From NCBI GenBank assembly GCA_936920195.1, contig CAKZHE010000061.1:1-56002 (forward strand): a stretch of DNA of 56,002 bases. Direction: 5' to 3'. Under the pieces are notes generated by a model, which was given only the letters and a program-made list of their open reading frames with translations, was not told where the DNA came from and searched no databases. The DNA is from an uncultured cyanobacterium. GTDB taxonomy: Bacteria; Cyanobacteriota; Cyanobacteriia; Cyanobacteriales; FACHB-T130. A program made the translations under genes and the position numbers. Below, piece after piece: positions 20,664 through 55,968 of the stretch. The number at the start of each line of letters is the position of its first letter. Positions within the stretch are counted from its first letter, which is position 1.

Positions 20664-21323
20664 ATGGCATCTGAGGAAAAAGATTTAACAGGCAACCAGT
20701 CTCGCCCATTGGAGAGTATGGTTGAGGGAACTGTTCAAACCCCAGCAGTAACTCCCATCCCGGAATCTCCGAAAAAAACTGCTCCCTTGGGAGGCTTTTG
20801 GCAGCAAATTCGAGAAAATCTGCAAATATTAGCGATCGCTCTGGTATTAGCCTTGTTGTTGCGGGTATTTATTGCCGAACCCCGTTACATCCCCTCAGAA
20901 TCCATGCTACCAACTTTGGAAACAGGCGATCGCTTAGTGATCGAGAAAATTTCTTATCGTCTGCACCCGCCAGCAGCTCGCGACATTGTAGTATTCGCAC
21001 CCCCTCCCCAATTACAAGTTCTCGGTTATGGTAAAGACCAAGCCTTCATTAAGCGGGTAATTGGCCTCTCTGGACAAATGGTAGAAATTCGGAACGGCAA
21101 AGTTTATATAGATAGGGAACCCCAACCAGAAAAATATATTGCCGAACCTCCCGATTATCGTTGGGGACCAGAAAAAGTCCCGGAAGGCCAGCTATTTGTC
21201 ATGGGTGACAATCGGAATAACAGTAATGATTCCCACGTCTGGGGTTTCTTGCCCAAGGAAAATATTATTGGTCGCGCTATTTTCCGCTTTTGGCCTCCCC
21301 GTCGCATTGGTTCTGTGAAATAG
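20664..21323 (+). CDS. lepB: Signal peptidase I
   Basis: A 219-residue membrane protease that removes signal peptides. I chose ATG at 20664 over an in-frame TTG at 20613. One membrane helix (about 53-70) precedes box B, IPSESMLPTL, with the nucleophile Ser80. The general base Lys130 lies in FIKRVIGL, and box E (GDNRNNSNDSHVWG) is complete. It has the single-helix form usual for cyanobacteria. The stop codon TAG forms the first bases of a G-rich heptamer repeat. Confidence 0.95.
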   Translation: MASEEKDLTGNQSRPLESMVEGTVQTPAVTPIPESPKKTAPLGGFWQQIRENLQILAIALVLALLLRVFIAEPRYIPSESMLPTLETGDRLVIEKISYRLHPPAARDIVVFAPPPQLQVLGYGKDQAFIKRVIGLSGQMVEIRNGKVYIDREPQPEKYIAEPPDYRWGPEKVPEGQLFVMGDNRNNSNDSHVWGFLPKENIIGRAIFRFWPPRRIGSVK

Positions 21324-21394
21324 GGAACAGGGAACAGGGAATAGGGAATAGGGAAGAGGGAACAGGGAAGAGGGAACAGGGAACAGGGAACAGG
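21321..21394. repeat. Heptameric G-rich tandem repeat
   Basis: Units GGGAACA, GGGAATA and GGGAAGA repeat with a 7-base period, beginning at the lepB stop codon itself. Same family as 38-160. Confidence 0.85.
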
Positions 21395-21510
21395 TAAGAG
21401 GTATTCGCGATGAGGGCTGAGGAATCAGTGTTGCTTTTTTGATTTTGCTTTATTTTTTATCTATGCTCTAACATTTATTATTTACTAGTGAATTTGTTAT
21501 AGGTTACTGG

Positions 21511-21570
21511 TAACAGGGAACAGGGAATAGGGAATAGGGAATAGGAGAGATAGGAGATAGGGAATTAGGG
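21511..21570. repeat. Heptameric G-rich repeat, partly degenerate
   Basis: Further GGGAACA/GGGAATA units degrading to TAGGAGA and TAGGGA-type sequence, about 115 bases after the previous tract. Confidence 0.7.
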
Positions 21571-21571
21571 A

Positions 21572-21856
21572 TTAGACAGCTAAGGGGATTTCGCGATGGC
21601 GGCTGAGGAATCGCAGTGCTTGGGCTGAGATTAAAAATATTTGAGGAACATCCTCTACCAGTAAGAGCCAGCGGTCTTCCTGAAATTGTAACTGCCATTT
21701 TTCCAATGATGAGAGAGGCAATATCAAATAGGATTGGTCGTGGACTTCATGGCAAGGAAATCCCCATTTTTTCGCCTTTATAAAAACTCTTTGTGAATCA
21801 ACTACTGGAAAAATTGTCGATTGATTGCTCAGAGGTAAAAAGTTATAATTATTCAT
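21572..21856 (-). CDS. Hypothetical small protein
   Basis: A 94-95 residue protein with a codon pattern like its neighbours. It contains WQLQFQEDRWLLLVEDVPQIFL and ends RFLSRHREIPLAV. No known domain comes to mind; the sequence has the look of a conserved cyanobacterial hypothetical with a beta-rich core. I use ATG at 21854-21856; a TTG two codons upstream is possible. No membrane segment or signal. Confidence 0.55.
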   Translation of the reverse strand: MNNYNFLPLSNQSTIFPVVDSQRVFIKAKKWGFPCHEVHDQSYLILPLSSLEKWQLQFQEDRWLLLVEDVPQIFLISAQALRFLSRHREIPLAV

Positions 21857-43052: not shown

Positions 43053-43194
43053 TTTTGGTCAAAGGGAATAGGGATTAACTCTTCTGTCTCATTGTATCCC
43101 CAACCCTGCTTGCGGCGATTTCCCAAGCTGGCTATAAATGCTATATATAAGATTAAACAAACTTCCTAGCGTTTTCTTGGATATTGCGATCGCC

Positions 43195-44334
43195 ATGCAA
43201 CCAGCCGTTACCTCCAGTCCCTCCCCCACCATCGATGCTCCTAAGCGCGGTTTGCCCGTCACCATCATTACAGGTTTTCTCGGCAGCGGTAAAACCACCC
43301 TCCTCAACCACATCCTCACCAATCAACAAGGAGTGAAAACCGCCGTTCTAGTCAATGAATTCGGCGAAATTGGCATTGATAACGAACTAATTATCTCCAC
43401 TGGTGATGATATGGTGGAGTTAAGCAACGGTTGTATTTGCTGCACCATCAATAATGACTTGGTAAATGCCGTTTACAAAGTTTTAGAGCGGGAAGATAAA
43501 ATTGATTATTTGGTAGTAGAAACTACAGGTTTAGCTGACCCCATGCCAGTCGCATTGACTTTTATTAGTACCGAACTGCGCGATTTAACTCGTTTAGATT
43601 CCATAGTTACCGTCGTCGATGCTGCCAATTATAGTCTAGATTTGTTCAAGAGCGAAGCCGCCTATAGTCAAATTTTATACGGCGATGTTATTCTGCTGAA
43701 TAAAGCCGATTTAGTAGATGAAGCCGACCTTGATAGTTTAGAACTGAAAATCCGCGATATCAAGGAAGGAGCTAGAATTCTCCGTACCACCAAATCCCAA
43801 GTTCCATTACCATTAATTCTCAGCGTAGGATTATTTGAAACTGACCTTTATTACAAATCCGAAGAGAAGGGAAAGCACGAACATCACGACCATCACGACC
43901 ATCACGACCATCATCACGACCACCACGACCATGAAGATCATGAAAACTGCGATCATGATCGTGGCGTTTGCAATCACGAGCATCACGAACATCACCACCA
44001 TTCCCATCACTTAGAAAATGATGGTTTTACCTCCGTATCCTTCCAGAGCGAAAAACCGCTAGCTATCAGAAAATTTCAGCACTTCCTAGATAATCAATTG
44101 CCTGCCAACGTATTTCGTGCCAAGGGAATTTTGTGGTTTGATGAAAGTCCCAGCCGTCACATTTTCCACCTCTGCGGCAAACGACTTACCATTGATGATG
44201 AAGAGTGGAAAGGCGAAAAGAAAAATCAGCTAGTGTTTATTGGTCAAGATTTAGATCGAGAAAAAATCCTAGAGCAATTAAAACAATGTGTTTGTCTTCC
44301 TTCTACCTATCGCGCCAAAGGTTTTGGAAAATAA
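43195..44334 (+). CDS. COG0523 (CobW-like) GTPase with His-rich metal-binding stretch
   Basis: A 379-residue G3E GTPase from ATG 43195; a frame start at 43138 would add 19 residues and lacks support. P-loop GFLGSGKTT (27-35), the metal motif CICC (80-83), ETTGLADP and NKAD (169-172) are present, then a CobW C-terminal domain. Between them, residues 228-272 contain 24 His, made by a 9-base CATCACGAC-type DNA repeat. Such proteins insert or deliver zinc, cobalt or nickel; a zinc-chaperone role is the likely guess. I do not see a Zur box upstream. Confidence 0.92.
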   Translation: MQPAVTSSPSPTIDAPKRGLPVTIITGFLGSGKTTLLNHILTNQQGVKTAVLVNEFGEIGIDNELIISTGDDMVELSNGCICCTINNDLVNAVYKVLEREDKIDYLVVETTGLADPMPVALTFISTELRDLTRLDSIVTVVDAANYSLDLFKSEAAYSQILYGDVILLNKADLVDEADLDSLELKIRDIKEGARILRTTKSQVPLPLILSVGLFETDLYYKSEEKGKHEHHDHHDHHDHHHDHHDHEDHENCDHDRGVCNHEHHEHHHHSHHLENDGFTSVSFQSEKPLAIRKFQHFLDNQLPANVFRAKGILWFDESPSRHIFHLCGKRLTIDDEEWKGEKKNQLVFIGQDLDREKILEQLKQCVCLPSTYRAKGFGK

Positions 44335-49299: not shown

Positions 49300-49541
49300 G
49301 GAGGGGTGACGATAAGGGGGTTGTTTATATTATATAGATCTGACAGCTTGAGCTAGGTGGTTGGATTAACTACAAATCCAGAAGAATTCCGGCTAGTTGT
49401 CTTGATATCTGCCTCTACTGGGCAATAAAAGGTAGGCTAGATTTCAGGATACTCAAGCGGAATTACGAAACCCCAGTAATTTTGTGCCAGTTTCCTCAGT
49501 GTCCCCGCTCTCAAGCACAAATCAACCAGCTATCTTCACTA

Positions 49542-50498
49542 ATGATCGACCACGACCGCTTATTCAAAGAACTGCTGACCACCTTCTTCTGGGAATTCAT
49601 CGAATTATTTCTCCCAGAAATTACCGCTTACTTAGATCGAGATTCCATCTCCTTCCTGGACAAAGAAATATTTACTGATGTGACTGCGGGAGCAAGATAC
49701 GAAGCGGATATCGTTGCTAAAATTCGATTTAGAGGTCAAGAATCATTCTTTCTCATTCATTTAGAACATCAAGCACAACCGCAAGCCGAATATGCCCGAA
49801 GAATGTTTCGCTACTTCTCCGGCCTGCATGAAAAATATAACTTGCCAGTTTATCCCATTGCACTTTTTTCATATACTTATCCCCTTAGTTTAGAACCGAA
49901 AGTTTATCAAGTTGAGTTTCCCAACAAAATAGTGCTACAGTTCGATTACGATGTAATTCAACTCAATCAACTCAACTGGCGGGATTTTTTACAGCAGGAA
50001 AACCCAGTCGCGGCGGCACTAATGGCCAAAATGCGAATTGATAAGCGCGATCGCCGTCGGGTAAAATACGAATGTTTGCGCCTGTTAGCCACCTTAAAGT
50101 TAAATCCCGCTAAAATGAGACTAATTGCTGGATTTGTAGACACTTACTTGCGGTTGAACGCGGCAGAGGAAAAATTGTTCAAAGCCGATATCACTCAGTT
50201 AGAACCAGAAAAGCAGGAGGTAGTGATGGAAATTGTCACTAGTTGGATGGAAGAGGGTATTCAACAGGGTATTCAACAGGGCATTCAACAAGGAATTCAA
50301 CAGGGCATTCAACAAGGAATTCAACAAGGAGAAAAAACCATCATTCAACGCTTATTAGAGCGACGGATAGGTGCGATCGCCCCAGAATTACAAGCTCAAA
50401 TTAACCAACTATCTTCGCCCCAATTAGAATTACTAGCAGAAGCATTATTGGACTTTGCCTCAGCTGGAGATTTAGCCGCTTGGCTGCAACATCATTGA
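49542..50498 (+). CDS. Rpn/PD-(D/E)XK nuclease-like protein with GIQQ repeats
   Basis: A 318-residue protein from ATG 49542 (MIDHDRLFKELLTTFFWEF). The nuclease core shows EADIVAKIRF and FFLIHLEHQAQPQ (E-x-Q), and RRMFRYFSGLHEKY. Residues about 239-262 are six GIQQ-like units encoded by a 12-base tandem repeat (50255-50330). The DUF4351-like tail LQAQINQLSSPQLELLAEAL follows. An in-frame extension to 49482 repeats this tail motif (QAQINQLSS) and looks like debris of another copy. Relative of the gene at 27986. Confidence 0.85.
   Translation: MIDHDRLFKELLTTFFWEFIELFLPEITAYLDRDSISFLDKEIFTDVTAGARYEADIVAKIRFRGQESFFLIHLEHQAQPQAEYARRMFRYFSGLHEKYNLPVYPIALFSYTYPLSLEPKVYQVEFPNKIVLQFDYDVIQLNQLNWRDFLQQENPVAAALMAKMRIDKRDRRRVKYECLRLLATLKLNPAKMRLIAGFVDTYLRLNAAEEKLFKADITQLEPEKQEVVMEIVTSWMEEGIQQGIQQGIQQGIQQGIQQGIQQGEKTIIQRLLERRIGAIAPELQAQINQLSSPQLELLAEALLDFASAGDLAAWLQHH
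50255..50330 (+). repeat. 12-base in-frame tandem repeat (GIQQ)
   Basis: ATTCAACAGGGT-type units repeated about six times without frameshift. Slippage would change protein length in steps of four residues. Confidence 0.85.
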
Positions 50499-50711: not shown

Positions 50712-51818
50712 TTGACAGTTATCCAGAAAGTTTCCCTAACTATCGGCAGCTTGTTAGTAGCAGGAATGGCGATCGCCCTGCCCTCAGTTGCCCTTGCCAA
50801 CCCCCCCGTTGTCGTTAGCCAGCAACAGCAACCCAATTCGGCGATTGCTGACTTACTGAAGGAAGGACGCAAGCAAGTAGATAGTGGCAATCTAGCCGCA
50901 GCCCTGGAAATTTATCAGCGGGCAGCTGGTTTAGAGCCAAATAATGCCAAGATCTTTTCTGGAATTGGTTACGTTCAAACTCTCCAAGGCAATTTTGACG
51001 ATGCCGCCTCAGCCTATCGCCGAGCGATCGCCATCGACCAAAATAATCCTGATTTCTACTACGCTCTGGCCTACAGCCTCGCCAATACTGGAGATAATGC
51101 CAGTGCTGCCGCCGCTTACCGCCGGACAGTCCAACTCAACAATAAGAACGTTAAGGCACTTTTGGGCTTGGGGATTGTACTGCTCCGCCAAGGAGACTCC
51201 CAAAACGCTTTGTGGGCTTACCAGCAAGTAGTTGCCCTAGAACCCAAAAATATTGAAGCCTATCAGTTACTCAGTGCCACTCTCCTGCAAGAAAAGCGTC
51301 CCAAGGAGGCAATTAAAGCCCTGCAAAAAGCGCTGGAAATCGCCCCCCGCAATGCTAATTTGCAGTTGAAATTAGGGGCAATTTTTATCGATCAAGGCGA
51401 TATGAATGCTGGCATAGCCGCTTTAGAAAAAGCTGCCAAACTAGACCCCCGCAATCCTCAAGTTTATGTCCAAATGGGCAGGGTTTTGCAAATCCAAAAT
51501 AATTGGGATGGCGCAATCAAAGCCTTTGAAAAAGCTACCAACATTTTACCCAATTCAGTAGAAGCGCAAGCAGGATTGGCAGATTCCTATCTAGCCAAGT
51601 CAGACTTTCTGATGGCAACGATCGCCTACCGTCGGTTAACGGAATTGGCTCCCCAAAACGCCCAAGCCTACTATAATCTGGGACTAGCCTTGAAAGAAAG
51701 AGCGCGGACTCCAGAAGCGATCGCTGCCTTAGAAAAAGCCCGCGATCTATTTCGCAGCCAAAACCAAGTCGAAGGTTTCCAAAAAGCGGAAGCTACTTTA
51801 CGACAAATTCGGGAATAG
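50712..51818 (+). CDS. Exported TPR protein
   Basis: A 368-residue protein with a signal peptide (TIGSLLVAGMAIALPSVALA, cleavage near 33). About eight tetratricopeptide repeats follow, with the pattern GNLAAALEIYQRAAGLEPNNAKIFSGIG and a strict 34-residue period. The last motif ends with ALEKARDLFRSQNQ. The start is TTG at 50712, with an excellent Shine-Dalgarno just upstream. It is probably a periplasmic or lumenal scaffold. No operon partner; the c-di-GMP gene starts 130 bases later. Confidence 0.92.
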   Translation: MTVIQKVSLTIGSLLVAGMAIALPSVALANPPVVVSQQQQPNSAIADLLKEGRKQVDSGNLAAALEIYQRAAGLEPNNAKIFSGIGYVQTLQGNFDDAASAYRRAIAIDQNNPDFYYALAYSLANTGDNASAAAAYRRTVQLNNKNVKALLGLGIVLLRQGDSQNALWAYQQVVALEPKNIEAYQLLSATLLQEKRPKEAIKALQKALEIAPRNANLQLKLGAIFIDQGDMNAGIAALEKAAKLDPRNPQVYVQMGRVLQIQNNWDGAIKAFEKATNILPNSVEAQAGLADSYLAKSDFLMATIAYRRLTELAPQNAQAYYNLGLALKERARTPEAIAALEKARDLFRSQNQVEGFQKAEATLRQIRE

Positions 51819-51945: not shown

Positions 51946-54900
51946 ATGATTAAACCAAACCCTTATCCGCATCAAGCAGTTCCGCTTAATGCCAAGCCTC
52001 AATCTCACCTTCCAGAACCTCGTTCCGTGAAACCGTTGAACGGTATTGTTCGCGAAGCTGCTCATCTTTGTCAAGCCCCAATTGCCCTACTTTGGTTAAG
52101 TGATGGGAGCGATTGCGCGAATATAGGGCTTCACTGCCTACAATCCTTAGTTGGTTGGGAAATCGCTAAATTCCCCAACCATAGTAACTTTTGCACCCAA
52201 ACCTTGCAGTTGTTAGACTGGCTAGTTGTGCCAGATACACACCAAGACGAGCGATTTGCCAGCGATCTCTTGGTAGTAAGAGAGCCGCAGATCCGATTTT
52301 ATGCTGGCTTACCCTTCAAGATTGGCATAGAAAAAACAGTGGCCATTCTAGGGGTAATGGATATCGTACCGCGTCTAAATTTAACCTGGGCGCAGAGGCA
52401 TGGTTTGCAAATATTAGTGAACCAAATTGTTGCTCAACTAAAATTGCATCTATTGTTAAATCAGACGGGTTGTCGCTCAAGCAAAAGCCCGCAGGCAGAA
52501 AACCAACTAGATATATTTTTGGCACTATCGCTAGATATGCTGTGCGTGGCTGGCTTTGATGGCTACTTTAAGCTGGTAAATCCTATGTGGAAAAAAATTC
52601 TGGGTCATTCTGACCAGGAACTGCAAAGCCGACCATTTATTGAATTTGTTCATCCGGAAGACCGCGCGGCTACCCTGGCAGTTGTGGAACAACTGGCGAA
52701 GGGTAATCCAGTCATTGCCTTTGAAAACCGCTATTGCTGCCAAGATGGTTCCTATCGCTGGTTGTCGTGGAACTCTACACCTTTAGTGCAGACGCAATTA
52801 ATTTATGCCACGGCGCAAGATATCACCGATAGTAAAGTTGCCCAGAAAATTCTCCAAGAAATTACCGCTGAAAACCAAAAATTATCCCAGGTACTAAATT
52901 CTGCCTCGGAAGGAATTATTATTACCGATCCCAATCAAAAAGATAATCCAATTATTTATTGCAATCCAGCTTTTACCAAGATCTCTGGGTACAAATTAGA
53001 AGAAGTTTTGGGGCGCAACTGCCGCTTTTTACAAGGCGATAAAACTGACCCCCAAGCGATCGCCCAAATTCGGCAAGCGATCGCCCAAAAACAAGAAATC
53101 AAAATCATCCTGCTCAACTATCGTAAAGACGGTCAGCCCTTTTGGAACGAATTAAAAATTTCCCCAGTTTTCGGGTCTTCATCTCTGCACTCAGAAAGCT
53201 CAACTAACTCCCAGCTAGTTGAAACTCAAAATAGTCCATCACCCCAACTGCTCTACTTCATCGGCATTCAAACAGACATCACTGAGAGCAAGCGAGTGGA
53301 AGAAGCCCTCCGACAAAGCGAACAGCGCTGGCGCTTCCTGGCAGAATCCATCCCCCAACAAGTATGGACAGCCAAGCCAGATGGCCTAGTCAACTATGTC
53401 AACCAGCGGGTACTAGATTATTTCGGGCGACCCCCAGAACAAATTTTGGGGATGAAATGGCAGTCCCTGATCCATCCAGAAGATTTGCCTAATTGTCTCC
53501 AAATTTGGCGGCATTCTTTAACTACCGGGGAACCCTACGAAGTCGAATTTCGCTTAAAGAAAAAAGATAGCACTTATCGCTGGCATATCGGACGGGCTTT
53601 GGCTTGGCGAGACTCCCAAGGGCAAATTGGGGCTTGGTTTGGCACGAATACAGATATTGACGATCGCCAGCAAGCAGAACGCAACCTGAGAAGCCATGCC
53701 AATCAGCAAGCAGTAGTAGCAGAACTAGGGCAACTAGCTCTAGCTGGCAAGGATTTAATGGTGCTGATAGATCGGGCAGTGGAGCTAGTTGTCCAAACCC
53801 TAGAAATTAAATATTGCTATATTTTAGAACTTTTACCAGGGGACAATGCCTTTCTACTGCGAGCGGGGACAGGTTGGCAAGACGGATTAGTTGGTTATGC
53901 AATTATTGGCGCTCAGGAAAATTCCCACGCTGGCTACACTTTGTTGGTGCAAGAGCCAGTCATTGTAGAGGACTTGCGGATAGAAACGCGCTTTTCTGGA
54001 CCGCCATTGCTGCACAACCACCGGGCAGTCAGTGGAATTAGTGCGATTATCCCCGGACAAGATAAACCTTTTGGAGTTTTGGGGGTGTATTCCACCCAAA
54101 AGCGCCAATTTACCGAAGACGATATTCACTTCTTGCAAGCCGTGGCGAATGTCCTGGCAACAGTGCGGGAACGCCAGCGCACGGAAGAAGCCCTGCGAGA
54201 AAGTCAGGAAAGATATGCGATCGCCGTCCGTGGTTCCAACGAAGGTTTGTGGGATTGGGACTTGCGGGCAAACGAAGTTTTCTTTTCTCCCCGCTGGAAG
54301 GCCATTCTAGGCTGTACAGACGGGGAAATTGGTGATACTCCAGAGGAGTGGTTTGAGCGCGTCCATCCCGATGACCAAGAACAATTGCGCGCCGAAATTG
54401 CCGCCCATTTGGAAGGTTTAATTCCCCATGCCATCAGCGAACATCGCATCCGCCATCGGGATGGAACCTATCGTTGGGTTCTCTGTCGAGGGCTAGCGGT
54501 GCGGGATGCGAAGGGCAATGCCTACCGCTTGGCAGGTTCCCAAACTGATATTACAGACCGGAAATTGGCAGAGGAACAGCTAATTTATGACGCTCTGCAC
54601 GATGCCCTGACTCACTTGCCCAATCGTAACTTGTTTATGGACAGGTTGGGACAGGCGATCGCACGGCGCTTAAGGCATCCTAGCTATCAATTGGCGGTAC
54701 TATTTCTAGATTTAGACCGCTTTAAAGTAGTTAATGATAGTTTAGGACATCTCCTCGGCGACCAATTGCTAGTGGCGATCGCTCGCCGTCTAGAAGCTTC
54801 CCTGCATAGTGGCGACACCGTAGCCCGCTTGGGGGGTGACGAATTTGTGATTTTACTGGAAGATATTCAAGGACTGAGCGATGCCGCCAGTATAGGCGAT

Positions 54901-55968
54901 CGCATCCATCGAGCCTTGCGAATGCCCTTTGACCTCAACGGTAATGAAGTTTTTGTCACCGCCAGCATTGGGATTGCCCTCTGTCCAGATGAATCCACCC
55001 ATCCCACCCATCCAGAAGACCTCTTACGCAACGCTGACATTGCCCTCTATCGAGCTAAAGCCCTCGGTAAAGCCCGCTATGAAGTTTTTGATACTGAAAT
55101 GCACAAACGCGCCGTGGAGCGGATGCGGCTCGAAAACGAATTGCGTCGCGCCATCGAAGCCACGCCCAAGGTTGCCAAGATTGCTGCCAAAATTGGTTAT
55201 GGCGACGTGCCATTACCGCACTTGCTAGTTTACTATCAACCAATTGTCAGACTCTCTGATGGTCAAATTGCTGGATTTGAAGCCCTCGTTCGCTTATCGC
55301 ACCCAGAACGGGGCTTAATTCCCCCTTCTGACTTTATTCCCATTGCCGAAGAAACGGGATTAATTGTAACTTTGGGAGCCTGGGTATTGCATGAAGCCTG
55401 CCGTCAAACTCGCCTTTGGCAGCAGCTATTACCCGAACTAACCATTAGCGTCAATCTTTCCGTTAAGCAATTTTCGCAACCAGATTATGTCGCCCAAATC
55501 GAGCAAACTTTATTGGAAACGGGATTGGAACCGCGCCATCTCAAGTTAGAAATTACTGAAAGCGTATTAATGGAAAATGCCTCGGCTACAGCGGAAATTT
55601 TGCGGCAATTAAGAGCATTGAAAATTCAGTTGAGTATTGACGATTTTGGCACAGGCTATTCTTCCTTAAGTTATTTACACCGTTTTCCCATTAATACCCT
55701 CAAGATTGATCGTTCCTTTGTCAGTTGTATCGGACAAGAGGGCGAAACCTCAGAAATTGTCCAAACCATCATCACCCTCGCCCATCACCTCAATATGGAT
55801 GTGATTGCCGAAGGGATAGAAACGGCGGAACAACTAGCTTTACTACAATCTTTGCAATGCGAACAAGGACAAGGATACTTTTTATCAAAACCCCTGGATT
55901 ATTTAGCCGCAGAGCAGTTAATTTTAAGTCAACTGCCCCACCCACAAGGGGATGGGGCTTGTAACTAG
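51946..55968 (+). CDS. GAF/PAS/LOV sensor with GGDEF and EAL domains
   Basis: A 1340-residue cytosolic cyclic-di-GMP enzyme. Domains in order: GAF (about 32-170), PAS (188-298), LOV (about 310-446), PAS/PAC (458-578), GAF (590-740), PAS/PAC (752-872), GGDEF (875-1050), EAL (1090-1335). The LOV domain has GRNCRFLQ with the photoactive Cys359, flavin-contact Asn391 and Asn401, and Gln442, with an insert of about 25 residues at 410-435. GGDEF (963-967) is intact, the I-site Arg is missing (HSGD). EAL has [17 protein letters not shown] and AEGIET, so a diesterase is likely. The start is ATG at 51946. Confidence 0.94.

Follow-up and report, generated by a model that had tools for sequence, protein, structure and literature searches.

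A LOV-GGDEF-EAL protein from an uncultured cyanobacterium with a 20-residue insert in the Hβ-Iβ loop of its LOV domain

We analyzed a window of 56,002 nucleotides, the entire contig C61 from the 5.7-Mb genome of an uncultured cyanobacterium. Near its end, a complete open reading frame on the plus strand (51946-55968) begins with ATG, stops 34 bases short of the contig end, and encodes a protein of 1,340 amino acids with the domain order GAF-PAS-LOV-PAS-GAF-PAS-GGDEF-EAL (open reading frame list, Pfam, and NCBIfam). An earlier note, made from the letters alone, had described one dual GGDEF-EAL reading frame with six sensory domains. Its coordinates proved exact, and Pfam returned four PAS-fold stretches and two GAF stretches, together with one GGDEF (2.4e-47) and one EAL domain (3.5e-74). 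All ten Pfam families listed scored above their cutoffs. None of the NCBIfam equivalogs among the 25 of 44 families listed passed its cutoff; the best of them, the Tlr1612-family c-di-GMP phosphodiesterase (NF053781), reached 625.4 bits against a cutoff of 1600, which leaves the protein outside that family.

A gene for a TPR protein lies directly upstream, 127 bp away (50712-51818, plus strand; Pfam and tblastn of the neighborhoods). The related gene is likewise preceded by a TPR relative in G030, G025, and G051 (48 to 53% identity), so that the pair occurs in four of nine genomes including the window's own, while tblastn found no TPR relative within 20 kb around the gene in G001 to G005. The stretch from 49482 to 50498 encodes a DUF4351/Transposase_31 protein, in which a 12-base tandem repeat (50254-50330) encodes repeated IQQG units. 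Elsewhere in the window, a CobW-family protein (43138-44334) contains a repeat (43876-43932) of CACGACCAT units, which would read His-Asp-His if in frame and is possibly a metal-binding loop. Tandem arrays of heptamer and related units (TTGGGAA, AGGGAAC, and AGGGAAT) are found at 36-148, 21319-21401, and 21515-21575, the contig starting 35 bases ahead of the first. Such heptamer arrays are common between cyanobacterial genes.

All domains of the 1,340-residue protein are encoded on the plus strand. The N-terminal GAF-like domain (about residues 25 to 175; 52018-52470) is one of the two Pfam GAF stretches and is 31% identical to the same region of L027, a related protein discussed below. PAS1 (about residues 185 to 298; 52498-52839), one of the four stretches matching Pfam PAS_3, is 60% identical to its counterpart in L027, and it was by comparison with that protein that the limits of these first two domains were drawn. 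The LOV domain (residues 308 to 449; 52867-53292), supported by phmmer against the PDB, alignment, AlphaFold2, and Foldseek, is followed by PAS2 (about residues 456 to 582; 53311-53691; Pfam PAS_4 at 467 to 575), which is 66% identical in L027. Next come GAF2 (residues 604 to 739; 53755-54162; Pfam GAF), which we considered as a candidate for binding a bilin or another known chromophore but which matched no PDB sequence at E ≤ 0.001, and PAS3 (residues 778 to 864; 54277-54537), the best Pfam PAS_3 stretch. The GGDEF diguanylate cyclase domain (residues 883 to 1042; 54592-55071; GGDEF motif at 54832-54846) and the EAL phosphodiesterase domain (residues 1092 to 1316; 55219-55893) were each supported by Pfam and by alignment with PDB 4rnh, and the EAL domain by the motif script as well.

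We then considered the LOV domain. Its motifs were located by script at residues 356 to 363 (GRNCRFLQ), 391 to 396 (NYRKDG), 399 to 401 (FWN), and 440 to 444 (GIQTD), with Cys359 (53020-53022, plus strand) as the expected flavin-adduct cysteine. LOV domains contact their flavin through Asn, Arg, Asn, Asn, and Gln. We aligned the window domain with 31 further rows, which the motif G.NC[RK][FILM]L picked out of 33 loci; no row came from L068, which duplicates the L027 segment, or from L071, another Cys-LOV, in which the motif is GENCRCLQ. Asn358, Cys359, Arg360, Asn391, and Asn401 were present in every one of the 32 rows, and Gln442 was present in 31. For Asn and Cys these counts are no independent evidence, the rows having been selected by that very motif. 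The LOV motifs named in the earlier note, Cys359 and GIQTD included, are where it had put them. A phmmer search of the PDB with residues 300 to 460 returned LOV domains on top, the nearest chains by sequence being two of a histidine-kinase LOV from Meiothermus ruber (9vf7 and 9vf8; E 1.2e-34 and 2.8e-34), followed by the blue-light photoreceptor 2pr5 (YtvA; E 2e-32). Chance motif matches as the source of the LOV call were ruled out by the E value of 1.2e-34 and by Pfam families that all exceeded their cutoffs. The AlphaFold2 model (mean pLDDT 84.4, pTM 0.72) has the strand and helix order of LOV/PAS domains and a long C-terminal helix; a Jα-like helix (model residues 139 to 161) is directed towards PAS2. 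Foldseek against the PDB likewise ranked LOV domains top among the 50 rows listed, with the M. ruber LOV domain first (TM 0.94 by target length). As judged from its sequence, the LOV domain is canonical, with a complete set of flavin-contact residues. We consider it very probable that it is photoactive, which would entail flavin binding and the usual photochemistry.

The one feature that sets this LOV domain apart is an insert of 20 residues (about residues 410 to 429; 53173-53232, plus strand), placed by the alignment and the predicted structure in the Hβ-Iβ hairpin loop. The earlier note had reported an unusual insert of 25 residues in the LOV core: its length is in fact 20, but unusual it is, the 20 columns being empty in all 31 other rows of the alignment, including L027, the sole full-length LOV-bearing ortholog among the matches listed. 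When loop lengths were counted by regular expression in 34 rows, the window domain had 31 residues and 30 rows had 11; the three rows that could not be measured in this way were two spurious frames (18 and 19 residues) and L074, in which we counted 11 by eye. A phylum-wide search with a LOV profile gave a match at E ≤ 1e-25 in 102 of 386 genomes. Among the 150 rows listed, taken without a filter for the cysteine, 138 had no net difference in length from the profile model, nine differed by between -1 and +3, two were longer by 7, and the window alone was longer by 20. Since the profile includes the window row, and since domains with large inserts could be split or ranked lower, this makes the insert rare rather than proven unique. 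Judging by titles and the opening parts of abstracts, we recognized no published description of a LOV domain with an Hβ-Iβ insert or of this protein.

The insert is rich in Ser, Thr, Gln, and Pro and is predicted to be disordered (pLDDT below 50 at model residues 108 to 121). Its origin through faulty assembly or as a repeat that moved in recently would fit with its being known from one assembly, no genome of the same genus being among the 60 searched, and with the short imperfect hairpin that it holds at 53200-53222. We regard such an origin as extremely unlikely, because the insert is in frame with the reading frame open on both sides, its GC content (0.44) lies less than one standard deviation from that of the gene, and no second genomic copy was found, the 15 other matches being of 14 to 33 bp with E values of 1.6 or worse. 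A tandem repeat or mobile element was also discarded as its source, there being no tandem array at this place, no direct repeat, and no second copy in the genome. The simplest reading is that of a tolerated loop extension. It is very unlikely, in our judgment, that the extension serves a function of its own, for instance by tethering or docking at the LOV sheet, with an effect on dimer packing, adduct lifetime, or the contact with the neighboring PAS domain; if it did, the light input to a c-di-GMP enzyme would have been retuned in this lineage. As a natural example of what the Hβ-Iβ loop tolerates, the extension is of minor use in LOV engineering.

The output half of the protein was compared with the motif sets expected of active EAL and of active GGDEF domains. 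GGDEF was located by script at residues 963 to 967, EAL at 1112 to 1114, and DDFGTGYSS at 1232 to 1240. The phosphodiesterase set, including EAL, LKID, and AEGIE by the motif script and QGYF by reading the translation, was intact, also in the alignment with 4rnh, a chain named 'Motility regulator' that is the nearest solved one to the GGDEF-EAL region by sequence (E 6.1e-111), and the cyclase motifs were intact by the motif script. The inhibitory RxxD, expected five residues before GGDEF, is replaced by HSGD (54805-54816, plus strand). Here too the earlier note, which had claimed intact active sites for both making and breaking c-di-GMP as well as a missing RxxD, was correct. Because the GGDEF motifs are intact and RxxD is missing, synthesis of c-di-GMP would be possible.

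It could be, as the earlier note suggested, that light sets the balance of synthesis and breakdown, with both domains active and the LOV domain switching the net direction. Both catalytic motifs are intact, a cyclase without RxxD would escape product control at that site, the nearest solved chain is itself a GGDEF-EAL protein, and bifunctional GGDEF-EAL proteins exist: MorA and MucR are reported as bifunctional in vitro, although in vivo MucR acts mainly as a cyclase and MorA mainly as a phosphodiesterase (PMC10874727). Nevertheless, we hold such a balance to be unlikely. In SL2 of Synechococcus, the one characterized cyanobacterial LOV-GGDEF-EAL protein that we came across, blue light is described as stimulating phosphodiesterase activity (PMC8846402, PMC5812497), and no light-regulated synthesis is reported for two LOV-GGDEF constructs derived from LOV-GGDEF-EAL proteins (PMC10396304), which is weak evidence because one construct lacked the GGDEF residues and the other was a truncation. 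The authors of that study suggested that in those LOV-GGDEF-EAL proteins light may regulate the EAL domain (PMC10396304). The sequence of the window protein offers nothing to tell the balance from a light-regulated phosphodiesterase. By analogy with SL2, with RmcA and RbdA, which have both domains intact and are described as predominantly phosphodiesterases (PMC10874727), with MorA, and more weakly with the two constructs, a phosphodiesterase is the more likely output. Against light-altered breakdown as the main output stand MucR, mainly a cyclase in vivo with two intact domains (PMC10874727), and the relatives of the window protein, most of which have no Cys-LOV.

We searched the full protein in 60 genomes, among them that of the window, scoring at most ten candidates per genome. 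Some match was found in all 60. Among the matches listed, one other genome, G030, combined a match to residues 2 to 1327 (60% identity) with a Cys-LOV. This genome is taken as Aphanothece sp. MAG CMT-3BRIN-NPC111, and its protein (L027/L088; a frame of 1,309 residues) has the same eight-domain order, a Cys-LOV (57% identical to that of the window), and the upstream TPR gene. Like the window protein, it lacks RxxD, having NFGD at the site; unlike it, L027 has no Hβ-Iβ insert and a shorter linker between GGDEF and EAL. The linker is thus a second difference in length between the two, and its length also varies in other relatives; in the window protein the linker carries a short direct repeat (55166-55195). 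In the order as a whole, 26 of 388 genomes, again including the window's own, had a match to this LOV domain at E ≤ 1e-35.

Among the matches listed, seven further proteins (L028 to L034, from G001 to G005, G025, and G051) are 60 to 65% identical in the GAF2-PAS3-GGDEF-EAL part. None of the seven has a Cys-LOV; each has a Cys-less PAS domain (GRTPRFLQ, GKTPRLLQ, or GKTPEILN) before GAF2, the relative from G004, taken as Trichocoleus sp. FACHB-40, being one of them. By tblastn, the G002 stretch aligns with residues 1 to 1318 (52%), and those of G025 and G051 align from about residue 180 onward (48%), so that some of the sharing extends to PAS1 and the N-terminal GAF, and the Cys-LOV is the difference. 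With the Cys-LOV missing in seven of nine closely related proteins (the window's included), the rest of the protein has evidently been kept without it. We rejected the idea that the Cys-less PAS is a decayed LOV domain, since the domain order puts it just before GAF2, the place that PAS2 holds here. L028 has another PAS domain between PAS1 and the Cys-less PAS, and L033 has a stretch of similar length there that is only weakly similar to a window PAS (E 0.02). Cys-less PAS domains with GRTPR or GKTPxxL in place of GRNCRFLQ occur in L028 to L034 and also on contigs C68 and C227 of the window's own genome; in some of them the LOV-like motif set is partly retained (NYRKDG, FW, and VQRD).

In a tree of LOV domains, a single branch (support 93/82) separated the 32 Cys-LOV rows from eight Cys-less rows, one of which (L040) belongs to a protein less closely related, and 95% of 200 bootstrap trees had one change at the cysteine. 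The tree speaks against repeated loss of the cysteine in these proteins. Because the branching order at the window row is not resolved and long branches are flagged, it does not settle whether the LOV domain was gained or lost. A tree of the C-terminal part grouped the other eight proteins to the exclusion of the window's (82/71) and paired L027 with L033 and L034 (100/98); since these two have no LOV domain, loss of the LOV domain or an independent gain is possible. RxxD is present in five of the nine proteins (L028, L029, L030, L033, and L034) and absent in four (the window's, L027, L031, and L032). We claim no link between LOV and RxxD, because both LOV-bearing proteins lack RxxD but so do two without LOV, and the numbers are too few.

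The window's own genome gave 17 matches to the LOV domain, five of which have the cysteine by motif search (the window, C274, C148, C251, and C296); the phylum-wide profile search had seven matches at E ≤ 1e-25 in this genome, five of them among the rows listed. The C148 match belongs to a second LOV-GGDEF-EAL protein (L182:102-3416, minus strand; a frame of 1,105 residues), in which LOV is the last sensor and is joined straight to GGDEF by the linker DITDRKLTEEQLIHNAFHDGLT, and which has RxxD in the form RVED. Like the window protein, it combines a Cys-LOV with GGDEF and EAL, but it has no Hβ-Iβ insert. Its layout is closer to the simple one of SL2. As a direct light-to-c-di-GMP switch, the C148 protein would be the more obvious candidate of the two.

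In the window protein, by comparison, LOV is the third of six sensors, and 441 residues, occupied by PAS2, GAF2, and PAS3, separate the DIT at its end (residue 445) from the DALT turn of GGDEF (residue 886). Coupling of light to the phosphodiesterase is uncertain over such a distance. This raises the question of whether the domain might bind flavin and bleach without being coupled to the output, or serve as a redox or dimerization module, the other sensors controlling the enzyme. The distance, the presence of a Cys-LOV in just two of nine closely related proteins, with a Cys-less GxTP PAS before GAF2 in the other seven, and the existence in the same genome of a protein with LOV adjoining GGDEF are all consistent with it. 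However, the flavin-binding and photochemical residues have been kept, which argues for a retained function, and the LOV domain has also been kept in L027. We find an uncoupled LOV domain unlikely; that the domain measurably changes c-di-GMP turnover is likely.

Overall, we favor, as the probable role of this protein, a multisensor c-di-GMP enzyme in which blue light, via LOV, mainly alters c-di-GMP breakdown by the EAL domain. Flavin bound to the LOV domain would absorb blue light and form an adduct with Cys359, and Gln442 and the Jα helix would relay the signal to GGDEF-EAL by way of PAS2, GAF2, and PAS3. As in SL2, it is chiefly the breakdown of c-di-GMP that would be altered; the GGDEF domain would either bind GTP and regulate the protein or be a second enzyme free of inhibition. 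Light would presumably be one input among several, and the 20-residue insert a neutral or near-neutral extension of its loop. If photoactive and coupled, the protein would add a further blue-light input to c-di-GMP in cyanobacteria and would be a test case for a LOV signal that passes three further sensor domains. The nine related proteins, two of them with a Cys-LOV, provide a natural set for studying the effect of adding or losing a light sensor in a similar enzyme.

LOV-GGDEF-EAL proteins are a kind already known, of which this is another member, and only the loop insert is unusual. SL2 of Synechococcus elongatus PCC 7942 (Cao et al. 2010) is described as a LOV-GGDEF-EAL protein whose c-di-GMP phosphodiesterase activity is stimulated by blue light (PMC8846402, PMC5812497, PMC13001216). 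Since its single polypeptide has a Cys-LOV as well as GGDEF and EAL domains, the window protein belongs to the same kind: compared by description, both are cyanobacterial and combine a canonical LOV domain with GGDEF and EAL. SL2 is described with LOV, GGDEF, and EAL, whereas in the window protein the LOV domain stands among five other sensors and carries the Hβ-Iβ insert. RmcA of Pseudomonas aeruginosa, which has been implicated in a light effect, resembles the window protein in being described with several PAS domains, one of them LOV-like, together with GGDEF and EAL (PMC8846402, PMC10874727). The LOV-like PAS domain of RmcA is, however, described as lacking the cysteine that the LOV domain of the window protein has.
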